Origin: Deltaproteobacteria bacterium
GTDB taxonomy: Bacteria > Desulfobacterota > DSM-4660 > Desulfatiglandales > HGW-15
DNA: 32,862 bases
Assembly: GCA_016931115.1 (NCBI GenBank)
Contig: JAFGFM010000117.1
Location: forward strand, 1 to 32,862
Direction of reading: 5' to 3'
The position numbers and the translations under genes were made by a program. The notes under the pieces were generated by a model that saw only the letters and a program-made list of their open reading frames with translations, did no database searches and was not told the DNA's origin. Numbering within the stretch: position 1 is the stretch's first letter; each line of letters begins with the position of its first letter. Shown here one piece after another: positions 25,237 to 29,996 of this stretch.

Positions 25237-27882
25237 TTATCTTAACACCACCCTGTTACTGATCCCAAGGGCATTCAGCTCCGCACTCAGTTCATCTGCC
25301 CCTGCCTTTGTAATAAATGCACCAGTAAGGAGGCTGTCAAAATTTTCATCAGCAATGATATATGGTGCATAACAATTTTCTTTCAGGATATTGATCATGC
25401 CTTCAAGGGCCTCCCTGTCAGTAAAGCTCCCTGCATAAACAGCATAGGCGCTCTTTTTTATCTCACCATCCTTTATGGCCTTTTCATTAATATATGCTTC
25501 TGCATCCGCTTTATCAGCGAACTCACCTGAATATACCCTGTACCATATCCCCTTTTCACCAAGGTTTACCTTTACCCAGAATGAAGCAATCCCTGATTTT
25601 GCATAGTGATCAATCGCACGCCCTGCCTGCTCTGTGCTGTTAAATGAACCCAGGTAAACAGAATATGGGAACCTGCCCTCCTGATAAATCATTTCTGTCT
25701 CTGTCTCAGCAGGGGGTTCGGGAGTTATATCGGGTTGTTTCTCTGCAATCTTTTCAGGAGTAGCCTTCTTTTCAACAGGCGCTTTCACATCTGCCATTGA
25801 GTCAGGCACATCTAACTCATCGAGTTTTGCTTTGGGTCTTTCAGGCCCCTGCTGTTTTACCTCTACCGGTGTTTCAGGGGCCTTTTTGATCTCCTTTATC
25901 TCTGGCCTTTCCGGAAAGATCGCACCCCTCTGCCACCACAATACAGCCATAATAATGATAATAGCAACAAGGGGTAAGAGCACCTTTAACAGGCTCTTCT
26001 TTTTAACAGGCGCATGCACTTCAGTGTCGCGCATATCAGCCCCTGCATATTTTTCTCTGAGTGCGCGGGGGATAAGGCCGGGCCTGACACAGTTAAGGGT
26101 TATGCCTATGATATTGCTGCTTACCCGTGAAAGCTGGGCAATGGTGCGTTTAAGCGCCCGCATGGAGACCTGTGAAGGGTTATATACCACAATGGTTCCA
26201 TCCACCTTTGCTGCCAGTGTGGCAGCATCCGCGCTGGAAAGCACAGGGGATGAATCAAGGATTACGATGTCATAGGCACTCTTTACCTCATCGAGAAACC
26301 CTGAAAAACCTTTTGTCCCAAGGAGTTCAGCCTGTTTATCTGGAATGGCCCCCCTTGTAATGATATTGAGTTTATCCAGGCCCGGTGTGATTATAACCTG
26401 ATCAAGGGTCATTCCTCCTATGATCATCTCTGTAACTGTCTTTACAATCTCTTCCCATTGAGATGTGCCCAGGAGAATATTCGTTAGGCCGGGGGACTCA
26501 TCAAGGAAGAACCTTGCGGAAAGGTCAGGATTGGTTAAGTCAGAACCCACGAGAAGCGTCCTGAGCCCTGCCTGTGCAAGGCTTATGGAAAGGTTTGCTG
26601 CAACCGTGCTCCTGCCTTCGCCCGGATAGCTCCCTGCTACTGCAATGGTCTTAATTCTCCCCTCATGGAGTATGGCCTGTATATTTGCCCTTAACCCCCT
26701 GAAGCTCTCGGACATTAGTGTCCCCGGTGCAAAATGGGTCACAAGAGTAATAAACTGTTCAGGTGATAGGACAGCCCCTTCCCTTTTACCACTGTCAGGT
26801 ATGCCCTGGTATAAATCCTTTTGCTCAACCGTGGGTATGACCCCTATAACCCTTACCTTGAGCCCATTTTCAAGTTTTTCTATTAATGCGGCAGAGTGGT
26901 CTATAGCCTCAATAATTATGACAAGGATCAGCCCCAGGATAATACCTGCTATGAGCCCTGTTAACGGAATTTTCAAATAATCAGGTTCATTGATAGACCG
27001 GGAAGCCCGCTGTGCAGGGCTTACAACCCTGATATAATCGGGGTTTTCTGCCCTTCTTATCATGGCCTCCTGCCTCTTTTCCTCTAAAAAAGAGGCTATA
27101 TTCCTTAAGGATTCAACCTCCATTTTAAGCCGGTCAAATTCAATCTTTTTATCCATGTGGAGGTCAATGTTCTCATTTACCTTCTCTAATTCCGGCTCAA
27201 GTGCCCTGCTGCTTTTTTGGACCTTCTCCTCTATCTCATTTTTCTTTACAAGCAGGGCCTCCCCCTCAAGATCAATGGAGACCAGCCGGTTTTCCTTTAT
27301 AAACCTTTCATACTCCCCTTCCTTAACCCTGAGTTTATCGTCTGTGGTCCGCTGCTCCTCATTGATATGTGCGATAACCTCATCAATGCGTTTATCATGA
27401 GCCTCTCTGTAGGATGTAACAAATGTGGAGGAGAAGGTTTCTGCGAGTTTAAGGGCCAGATCAGGGTCTTTGTCCAGCACCCTGATGCAAAGGATATCTG
27501 TTTTACCCTCCCTCTCAATAGAAATTTTTGACCTTAAATCCTCAATAACCGGGTTTATACCAGGGTCTGCTTCCGGATTTTCAGGATCAATCAGAGAGAG
27601 TTTCGCAACAACCCCTTTAAGAAAATCATGGCTCAGCATGATTGCCTGCTGTGTCTCAATGTTATCAGAAGGGGTAGAAAGAAGCCTGTTAATAAAATCG
27701 TCTGAGCCACGGTCCGGCTCGAATCTTATACTGCACGAGGAGGTATATACAGGTCTAAGGGCCTTCCATGCTGCATAGATACCGCTTAATCCCAGGCAGG
27801 CCCCTATCACGAAGACAATTGTGACCCATCTTTTTACTGCAACCCTTAAAAATATTCCGGGATTGAAACTGTTACCGGTCAA
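25237..27882 (-). CDS. Wzz/BY-kinase-like polysaccharide co-polymerase with C-terminal SPOR region
   Basis: An 881-residue multidomain inner-membrane protein. Order: TM1 (about 18-38), periplasmic Wzz domain and coiled coil (about 45-300), TM2 (about 305-325), a cytoplasmic CpsD/BY-kinase-like ATPase (about 385-605), TM3 (631-650), a Pro/Glu/Lys-rich periplasmic linker (655-735), then two SPOR-like repeats (about 737-805 and 812-881). Walker A is GSYPGEGRST, with R424 where Lys is normal. Walker A' is LLVGSD (D448) and Walker B is DIVILD (D543). The usual C-terminal Tyr cluster is replaced by the TM and SPOR tail. A role in exopolysaccharide or peptidoglycan-linked control is likely. It overlaps the HD-GYP gene by 4 bp (ATGA). 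Confidence 0.88.
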   Translation of the reverse strand: MTGNSFNPGIFLRVAVKRWVTIVFVIGACLGLSGIYAAWKALRPVYTSSCSIRFEPDRGSDDFINRLLSTPSDNIETQQAIMLSHDFLKGVVAKLSLIDPENPEADPGINPVIEDLRSKISIEREGKTDILCIRVLDKDPDLALKLAETFSSTFVTSYREAHDKRIDEVIAHINEEQRTTDDKLRVKEGEYERFIKENRLVSIDLEGEALLVKKNEIEEKVQKSSRALEPELEKVNENIDLHMDKKIEFDRLKMEVESLRNIASFLEEKRQEAMIRRAENPDYIRVVSPAQRASRSINEPDYLKIPLTGLIAGIILGLILVIIIEAIDHSAALIEKLENGLKVRVIGVIPTVEQKDLYQGIPDSGKREGAVLSPEQFITLVTHFAPGTLMSESFRGLRANIQAILHEGRIKTIAVAGSYPGEGRSTVAANLSISLAQAGLRTLLVGSDLTNPDLSARFFLDESPGLTNILLGTSQWEEIVKTVTEMIIGGMTLDQVIITPGLDKLNIITRGAIPDKQAELLGTKGFSGFLDEVKSAYDIVILDSSPVLSSADAATLAAKVDGTIVVYNPSQVSMRALKRTIAQLSRVSSNIIGITLNCVRPGLIPRALREKYAGADMRDTEVHAPVKKKSLLKVLLPLVAIIIIMAVLWWQRGAIFPERPEIKEIKKAPETPVEVKQQGPERPKAKLDELDVPDSMADVKAPVEKKATPEKIAEKQPDITPEPPAETETEMIYQEGRFPYSVYLGSFNSTEQAGRAIDHYAKSGIASFWVKVNLGEKGIWYRVYSGEFADKADAEAYINEKAIKDGEIKKSAYAVYAGSFTDREALEGMINILKENCYAPYIIADENFDSLLTGAFITKAGADELSAELNALGISNRVVLR

Positions 27883-28949
27883 TTGGCCTCCTTAACTGCT
27901 GTTGTTTCAGGCTGAATGCATTCTTCTATATGCAGCAAGGGATTGAGCACAAGGTCTATCTGAAAACCCTCATCTGTTTTTCTGCCCTCAGTGTCATAGA
28001 GTATCTCAAGTACAGGGCTCAGGGGGTGCCTCCTGTTAACAGAGATGACCCGCCCTGTAAAACCATTATTGAGCCTCACATGGGAGTTGACCGGAAAAAT
28101 AGAGAGCTCATTTAGAAATGCCTTCAGTGGCTTAATGAGAAAAAGCTCTCTCCCTGTTTCAGCTATGTGCCTTACTGCCTCATGGGGTAAATAACTGTCT
28201 CTGTATGGCCTTTTAGCGATCATGGCGCAATAGGTGTCTGCAATAGAAAGGATAGATGCAAGTTCAGGAACCCTCTCTCCTTTGAGACCAAGCGGATAAC
28301 CTGAACCGTCAACCCTCTCATGGACGCACCTGGCGGCTTCAGCAAGCCAGGCGTATCTTTCACCGAGCGTAAGCAGGATGTGATAGCCTGATTCAGGATG
28401 CCTCCTGATTAAGGCCATATCCTTACCTGATAGTTCATCTGTGCTTTTAAGGATGTTTTCAGGGATCATATGCATGCCTGCGTTTTCAAGCATGGCGGCA
28501 AGGCCAAGCCTCATCATCATCTTCATGTCATAGTTCATGGCCTTACCTATCTTAAGTGCGGTAAAGGTAACATCAACTGCATGTGAGGCAGGGTCATATG
28601 CGTCCCTGGCCCTGGACATGGCATATTCATAGAGGCCATCAACAAGCCCCTTTTCCAGGAGTGTATGGATATCGGAAAGCAGAGGGGCAGGGGTTATGGG
28701 CATATTGCCCTTTATGGCATCAGCGGTTTCATGTGCCCTTTCCATAAAGGCCCTGAAATATCTCTCTGCCTCAGCACCCTCATTTTTTTTGTGAGGGGGC
28801 TCTTTTATGACCTGGGATACAATATTTGCAGGCGTAAAAAGGGGTGAATCGCTGAGCCTGAACCCCTCCTCCTGTTTTGGAGGTGCAGGCTGCCTGTTTT
28901 CAGCATCCTTTTTATCCCTAAGCCTGATTATATCAGAAAAGCGCACCAT
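27879..28949 (-). CDS. Degenerate HD-GYP-domain protein
   Basis: This 356-residue cytoplasmic protein has an N-terminal low-complexity/helical part (1-115), an HD-GYP-like domain (about 118-275), and a C-terminal beta domain (about 290-345: VNSHVRLNNGFTGRVISV) often found after HD-GYP. Active HD-GYP proteins hydrolyse cyclic di-GMP and carry HDIGK. Here the position reads LENAGMH, so the metal-binding HD is E155-N156. Retained features are H123, H184-P185, H210-E211 (VHE for HHE), GSGYP (215-219), and RPYR (247-250). It probably binds rather than cleaves a nucleotide or partner. It overlaps the ATPase gene by 17 bp and the Wzz/kinase gene by 4 bp. Confidence 0.88.
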   Translation of the reverse strand: MVRFSDIIRLRDKKDAENRQPAPPKQEEGFRLSDSPLFTPANIVSQVIKEPPHKKNEGAEAERYFRAFMERAHETADAIKGNMPITPAPLLSDIHTLLEKGLVDGLYEYAMSRARDAYDPASHAVDVTFTALKIGKAMNYDMKMMMRLGLAAMLENAGMHMIPENILKSTDELSGKDMALIRRHPESGYHILLTLGERYAWLAEAARCVHERVDGSGYPLGLKGERVPELASILSIADTYCAMIAKRPYRDSYLPHEAVRHIAETGRELFLIKPLKAFLNELSIFPVNSHVRLNNGFTGRVISVNRRHPLSPVLEILYDTEGRKTDEGFQIDLVLNPLLHIEECIQPETTAVKEAN

Positions 28950-29733
28950 CGCTGATCACATTCTCCACCAGTTTTTTACTGACATTCTCCTGTTTTGTGC
29001 CTGATCCTACAAGCAGGGAGAGATCACACAGGTTATTAATCCTTCTCGGTACCCCACCTGTATATTCATATATCCTCTCCACCGCATCATCAGAAAAGAG
29101 GTTGCCCCTGCCCCCCGCCTTTTCCTGCCTGAAGATAATATATCTGGCCGTCTCTTCAAGGTTAAAGGGTATAAGATGATATTTTATGGCGATCCGCTGG
29201 TCAAGCTGCTCGATCTCCTTTACCTTCTTTATCAACTCCGGCTGCCCGATAAGTATAATGGTCATCAGGAACCTGCTGTTAAGCTGGAAATTTAAAAGCA
29301 GCCTTATCTCTTCAAAGGATGCCTCATTAAGTATCTGTGCCTCGTCAACAATAAGGAGGGTCTCTTTTCCGGCCTCAAGGTTGGCAAGCATCCTTTCATT
29401 GAGCGCTCTAAGGCATTTCACCTTTGTGTCAGGGATATCCTTTATGCCGAACTGGTAGAGTATCTCCTGTAAAAACTCTAAAGATTCGAGCCTTGGGTTT
29501 ACGATTATACCTATGTCATATTTTTCTATGGGGAGTTCCCTTACAAATACCATTGAGAGTGTGGTTTTGCCGCAACCGATCTCGCCAGAGAGCATTGCGC
29601 TCCCCTTTCTCATCCTGGCTGCATAGATAAGGCGCGTGAGCCCCTCCTCATGTGAGGCGGAGAGGTAGTAAAACTCCGGGTCAGGGACGCTTTCAAATGG
29701 GAGCCGGTCAAATTTCCAGTAATCCAGGTACAT
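28933..29733 (-). CDS. ExeA/GspA-like AAA ATPase
   Basis: This 266-residue AAA ATPase is of the type found in ExeA and in exosortase/exopolysaccharide loci. The typical start MYLDYWKFDRLPFESVPDPEF (split here: MYLDYWKFDR, then LPFESVPDPE) leads to Walker A GEIGCGKTT (50-58), Walker B LLIVDEAQ (126-133), sensor-like IILIGQPEL (159-167), and a GGVPRRINNLCD segment near the C-terminus. Unlike Aeromonas ExeA it has no TM or peptidoglycan-binding part. It is the first gene of a tightly overlapping trio, and likely powers or senses assembly with the membrane Wzz/kinase protein. Confidence 0.92.
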   Translation of the reverse strand: MYLDYWKFDRLPFESVPDPEFYYLSASHEEGLTRLIYAARMRKGSAMLSGEIGCGKTTLSMVFVRELPIEKYDIGIIVNPRLESLEFLQEILYQFGIKDIPDTKVKCLRALNERMLANLEAGKETLLIVDEAQILNEASFEEIRLLLNFQLNSRFLMTIILIGQPELIKKVKEIEQLDQRIAIKYHLIPFNLEETARYIIFRQEKAGGRGNLFSDDAVERIYEYTGGVPRRINNLCDLSLLVGSGTKQENVSKKLVENVISDGALF

Positions 29734-29996
29734 CAGTCACCACAACAATATTATTTTTTACTACATGAAATACTATATTTTCCCAGTCTTTACAGGGTAA
29801 GGTAATTTATCCCTTTGGGATGCTTGTGTCACCTCAAAATAAAAACAATTATATCCTTTTTAAAACAATTTAAAAGCTGCTTGATCAGGGTTGATAAAGA
29901 AAAAAAAACAATATATGTATACTTCGGTAAAAAGATCAAAAATATTTAATAAAAACGGATACTCTTCCGGTATCCGCATTAGAAAAGAGGTAATTG
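29734..29996. other. Divergent intergenic region between the ATPase and formyltransferase-like genes
   Basis: On the minus strand a perfect TATAAT lies at 29853-29848 with only a weak -35 (17-nt spacing), about 115 nt upstream of the ATPase ATG. A small hairpin (ATCCC/GGGAT, 29809-29821) is in its leader. On the plus strand TTGATA at 29891-29896 is followed 17 nt later by TATGTA. A 7-bp hairpin, CGGATAC/GTATCCG, spans 29956-29976. Read on the minus strand it is followed by TTTTTATT, like a terminator, although no minus-strand gene lies upstream. Confidence 0.45.

Follow-up and report, generated by a model that had tools for sequence, protein, structure and literature searches.

The question raised by this locus is what is done in the cell by three overlapping genes resembling parts of a polysaccharide export machinery, when no EPS genes adjoin them among the ORFs of the window, and whether they constitute a self-contained envelope control system, as had been proposed in the first-pass annotation. 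The window, meaning the whole stretch of 32,862 nucleotides that was analysed (contig JAFGFM010000117.1 of the Deltaproteobacteria bacterium assembly GCA_016931115.1), contains the following three intact genes, to which domains were assigned using Pfam and NCBIfam profiles:

28933..29733, minus strand: AAA ATPase (ExeA/TIGR03015-like), 266 aa, with an AAA_22 match and a sub-cutoff TIGR03015 match
27879..28949, minus strand: HD-GYP-like pseudo-phosphodiesterase, 356 aa, with an HD_5 match
25237..27882, minus strand: polysaccharide co-polymerase (PCP)-like Wzz/kinase/SPOR protein, 881 aa, with Wzz, AAA_31/eps_fam kinase and SPOR matches

The overlaps are exactly those first reported, 17 bp between the AAA and HD genes and 4 bp between the HD and PCP genes. 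The same AAA–HD–PCP block is present in a sister species of the same genus (G001; the window's own genome is G000), in which the PCP-like gene likewise starts with TTG preceded by AAGGAG(G), and the 17-bp overlap is found not only in G001 but also in G010, G003, G008 and G045. As the block repeats in G001 and the overlap recurs in relatives, this arrangement goes beyond chance. On one side of the trio in the window lie biotin-type genes, and the genes on its other side are divergent and unrelated. A segment of ~110 bp upstream of the AAA gene (window 29825-29945) is near-identical to G001, and the next 70 bp are not; no promoter was assigned to this segment, and a riboswitch upstream of the trio was considered and rejected, there being no Rfam match.

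The HD protein has a well-defined set of orthologs, delimited by an E-value gap between about 1e-60 and 1e-35, and these were found in 24 of the 85 genomes of the order and in 25 of the 395 genomes sampled from the phylum. Their neighbourhoods were read in detail at 50 loci: at 32 of these the AAA gene is a same-strand neighbour of the HD gene or is fused to it, and at 26 OPX follows HD. The full operon in relatives is AAA–HD–OPX–PCP–Wzy, and some of them have a Wzx flippase further along; in most relatives with a readable neighbourhood it is the AAA–HD pair that stands at the operon head, with no exosortase recognised in the locus. In one genome the AAA and HD-GYP-like parts are fused in a single 578-aa protein (L312:8698-10434, L168:8933-10669), followed by OPX–PCP–Wzy–Wzx, and the matches listed in a wider contig scan included this fusion as well as two loci of Nitrospira type. 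Adjacency this frequent, together with the fusion, makes it very probable that the products work together, as was initially suggested, presumably in a physical complex.

Given this operon context, the trio is mainly an export-operon module, apparently not an exosortase module and not a generally self-contained one. The lack of Wzx and Wzy, taken at first as a general trait, proves to be a lineage-specific loss, since the same genes lie in the export operons of relatives. The proposed envelope control system therefore survives as a lineage-specific idea, holding for this genus, in which the trio stands alone under purifying selection, and not for the relatives, in which it heads an OPX–PCP–Wzy(–Wzx) operon. 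The first-pass annotation had itself set against its proposal the prospect that in other genomes the genes would always belong to a standard exosortase/EPS locus; as regards export this is mostly what the operons of relatives show, and as regards exosortase none was recognised in them. The operon type that emerges, AAA–pseudo-HD-GYP–OPX–PCP-SPOR–Wzy, is little known and is tied to a likely c-di-GMP receptor.

In G000 and G001 the block consists of AAA–HD–PCP only, OPX, Wzy and Wzx genes being absent from the locus, and operon-type OPX or Wzy orthologs were not found elsewhere in either genome. That the missing OPX and Wzy reflect an assembly or binning gap is hardly credible: G000 is an assembly of 240 contigs, but its completeness is 98.5%, the overlapping HD and PCP genes lie in one contig so that nothing is missing between them, and the same block occurs in G001. 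Four OPX genes are present elsewhere in G000 (contigs C55, C117, C128 and C148), the best of which scores 147 bits as against at least 496 for operon OPX, so that none is operon-type; the one on C55 belongs to an OPX–PCP–Wzy-like–Wzx locus. These genes could be taken to mean that the trio still serves ordinary export, supplying its AAA, HD and co-polymerase in trans to another OPX/Wzy locus of the same genome, which we regard as unlikely, since the C55 locus has a large PCP-like gene of its own, the other OPX proteins are not operon-type and the trio PCP is missing the docking tip described below. The PCP and HD proteins of the window sit on long branches in trees and, with the caution that this demands, the window PCP is nearer to the OPX-containing operons of G003, G010 and G004; an origin in the OPX-less HD–PCP paralogs of G007, G013, G006, G012 and G016 was rejected on the PCP tree, subject to the same long-branch caution.

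The PCP-like protein itself has been reshaped. Its layout comprises a first membrane helix, a short periplasmic helical arm, a second membrane helix, a BY-pseudokinase domain, a third membrane helix, a linker and SPOR, the three helices being placed by hydropathy at residues ~14–38, 301–335 and 626–657. Its predicted model is poor (pLDDT 60), with Wza–Wzc entries as the best fold matches, and for this reason only helix layout and fold class were taken from it. Three features of the protein matter here:

27213..27214, minus strand: site of the missing hairpin, between residues 223 and 224; the hairpin is 88–93 residues long in relatives
26053..26760, minus strand: BY-pseudokinase domain, residues 375–610, with Walker A PGEGRST (K to R), Walker A' GSDLTN and a retained Walker B ILDSSP
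25240..25677, minus strand: SPOR region, residues 736–881, two SPOR stretches (55.3 bits against a cutoff of 21), common to most relatives

Among the 34 PCPs compared, a tip length of 0 aa is found only in this genus, one contiguous hairpin of ~93 residues having been lost, while all others have 88–93 residues. Relatives' PCPs align continuously through residues 208–339 of E. coli K-12 Wzc, whereas in the window PCP the alignment breaks off after 321 and resumes at 340, skipping 322–339; the Wza-docking residues of Wzc are K332, Y334, T335 and H338 (PMC12881504). The missing hairpin is the part that in relatives aligns over the OPX/Wza-docking tip of Wzc; this alignment is weak (~22 bits per segment), but relatives and window agree on the place. 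In the kinase domain the K to R change in Walker A is confined to G000 and G001, the other 32 PCPs having K; Walker A' is without its first Asp and its Arg, and of the Tyr cluster after the domain only 1 Tyr is left, as compared with 5–8 in nearly all relatives. G002 (L054) looks like a second, partial case of export-part loss: its Tyr cluster and tip motif are lost, its tip length is kept and no operon-type OPX or Wzy was found among the genes examined.

The tail is, by contrast with these losses, retained, and the peptidoglycan-binding end noted at first pass is the SPOR region, for which periplasmic location is predicted because the third membrane helix precedes it and for which binding to peptidoglycan is likewise a prediction. 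Compared with known co-polymerases, the protein shares with PCP-1 chain-length regulators (WzzB), as judged by size only, a short periplasmic arm and the lack of an OPX partner; WzzB has no kinase domain and no SPOR. With Wzc, a PCP-2a tyrosine autokinase of the Wza–Wzc system, it has in common the Wzz domain, two membrane helices and a C-terminal kinase-fold domain, but it lacks the OPX partner gene, docking tip, Walker A K and Tyr cluster and has in addition the third membrane helix and SPOR. The literature searched contained no informative paper that linked SPOR to Wzc or to tyrosine-kinase co-polymerases. A precedent for the broken kinase is EcpK of Myxococcus, a BY pseudokinase that works with EpsV as a scaffold for the co-polymerase (PMC12004946). 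Both kinase-like domains are without catalytic and Tyr residues, and a scaffold role would be expected for both; EcpK is a separate protein within a full export pathway, whereas the window protein combines its pseudokinase, in which Walker B is retained, with the co-polymerase and SPOR in one chain, and its operon has no OPX.

The HD-GYP-like protein was considered inactive in the first-pass annotation and its motifs bear this out: HD has become EN, GK has become GM and HH has become VH, with GYP and the RPYR/M cyclic-nucleotide contacts kept. Relative to PmGH, whose metal-ligand identities we take from general knowledge together with the DvhD study cited below, ligands H221, D222 and H276 are replaced and four ligand positions (H189, H250, H277 and D305) are kept. 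In 18 of 18 aligned sequences the first H of HH is missing, and GM replaces the GK of HDxGK in all or nearly all of them; as one related family still has the HD dyad, decay of the metal site has been graded. The predicted model (pLDDT 83) has as its best fold match the c-di-GMP-bound form of DvhD, a metal-free, non-hydrolysing HD-GYP c-di-GMP receptor from the sulfate reducer Desulfovibrio (PMC13090378). Equivalents of the DvhD contacts L577, Y621, M646, R650, Y652 and R653 are kept in the window protein and are near-invariant in the family; 6 of the 7 mapped canonical-site or adjacent residues are kept, the exception being K582, and of the bridging residues P567 has a kept equivalent and R569 is not conserved. 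Since several of these contacts are generic HD-GYP residues, their retention supports c-di-GMP binding without proving it, and on residues and fold together the protein is likely to be a c-di-GMP receptor. It resembles DvhD in the loss of the HD and HH metal motifs, the largely kept nucleotide contacts and the top fold match, and differs in having no PAS domain, periplasmic domain or membrane helix, in being coupled to an AAA ATPase and in that binding is predicted only.

The AAA ATPase has intact Walker A (GEIGCGKT) and Walker B (LLIVDEAQ) motifs and neither a membrane helix nor a peptidoglycan-binding domain of its own. Like the XrtA/PEP-CTERM system ATPase, it has an AAA domain matching TIGR03015 over the whole model length, but its 229 bits fall below the curated cutoff of 324.5, and no exosortase gene was recognised by reading among the window ORFs or the relatives' neighbours scanned; membership of an exosortase/PEP-CTERM system was therefore rejected. 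ExeA/GspA unites an AAA domain, a membrane helix and a peptidoglycan-binding domain in one protein, whereas the trio protein is an AAA domain only. Elsewhere in G000 (L151:5041-6681, contig C235) a 546-aa protein carries an AAA domain and, in the same chain, a SPOR-like C-terminus, equivalent to the two ends of the trio fused.

Comparison of G000 with G001 yielded dN/dS values of 0.058 for AAA, 0.29 for HD and 0.28 for PCP, and within the PCP of 0.13 for the pseudokinase domain, 0.19 for SPOR and 0.69 for the linker; the neighbouring biotin-type genes have values of 0.10–0.22. With values of 0.06–0.29 the trio is being kept by purifying selection, and AAA, its most constrained gene, is more constrained than the biotin-type neighbours. 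The rates for HD and PCP exceed those of their neighbours, so that gradual decay is conceivable, and a decaying export-operon remnant with no present function would account for the lost export partners, the broken kinase motifs and the long PCP and HD branches. This we consider very unlikely in view of uninterrupted frames in both species (73–96% identity), the dN/dS values and the constraint on AAA. As selection preserves the remaining genes, a function of its own is probable for the regulatory core.

That function could be independent of polysaccharide altogether, the trio now acting as a c-di-GMP-controlled AAA motor for peptidoglycan-anchored envelope assembly (ExeA/ExeB- or DamX-like) with the PCP serving only as a membrane/peptidoglycan adaptor. 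The strong constraint on AAA, the AAA–SPOR fusion protein of G000 and the precedent of ExeA, in which an ATPase and the binding of peptidoglycan are coupled for secretin assembly (PMC4098917), are in line with such a motor, as are AAA–HD pairs without EPS genes, which occur in several genomes and mean that the polysaccharide link may be dispensable for AAA–HD function. Constraint nevertheless also extends to the N-terminal domain and the pseudokinase fold of the PCP, and nothing near the trio was recognised as a secretin or other assembly target, so that we hold this reading to be doubtful. The broader proposal of a c-di-GMP-gated, peptidoglycan-anchored AAA/pseudo-HD-GYP/pseudokinase complex lying fully outside polysaccharide export and running another envelope process is a possibility to be entertained tentatively; were it true, the regulatory core of an export machine could turn into a stand-alone device.

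The explanation that we prefer, with middling confidence, is that the trio is a reduced and re-purposed exopolysaccharide export operon of the Wzx/Wzy type, forming a c-di-GMP-responsive, peptidoglycan-anchored scaffold that works without an outer-membrane exporter. In the ancestor, AAA and the metal-free HD-GYP protein would have controlled, or helped to build, an OPX–PCP channel that spanned the envelope and was held to peptidoglycan by SPOR. Following loss in this genus of OPX and Wzy from the operon and of the docking hairpin, and breakage of the kinase motifs, what is left would be an inner-membrane scaffold or oligomer bound to peptidoglycan via SPOR, in which c-di-GMP on the HD-GYP domain may switch the contacts that this domain makes to the AAA motor and to the pseudokinase. 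The likeliest use of such a scaffold, itself no export channel, would be to influence, in trans, the polymerisation of envelope polysaccharide or the positioning of an envelope machine, with polymerisation in trans somewhat ahead of other outputs. The locus thereby constitutes a natural experiment, one genus having dropped exporter, docking tip and kinase motifs together with AAA, HD-GYP and SPOR kept under selection, and it becomes testable whether AAA–HD and the SPOR tail have a role apart from polymer export and whether, outside enterobacteria, OPX is indeed contacted through the coiled-coil tip.

Relatives also differ at the edges of the operon. Two EPS-free AAA–HD pairs (L301:8247-8537, L305:7593-8483), which adjoin a PqqD-family gene or have in their vicinity a gene weakly resembling HprK/PEPCK, possibly belong to a different system, and HD–PCP pairs without AAA or OPX occur in three other genomes (L053:9274-13448, L057:24-4863, L054:9715-14409). 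A gene for a low-molecular-weight tyrosine phosphatase, the usual partner of tyrosine-kinase co-polymerases, adjoins the AAA gene in three genomes (L294:7972-8436, L299:7833-8309, L302:12037-12522). At L045:3916-6951 an SH3-like repeat apparently replaces SPOR in the co-polymerase tail, and the tails of the PCP-SPOR co-polymerase family seem to be exchangeable.
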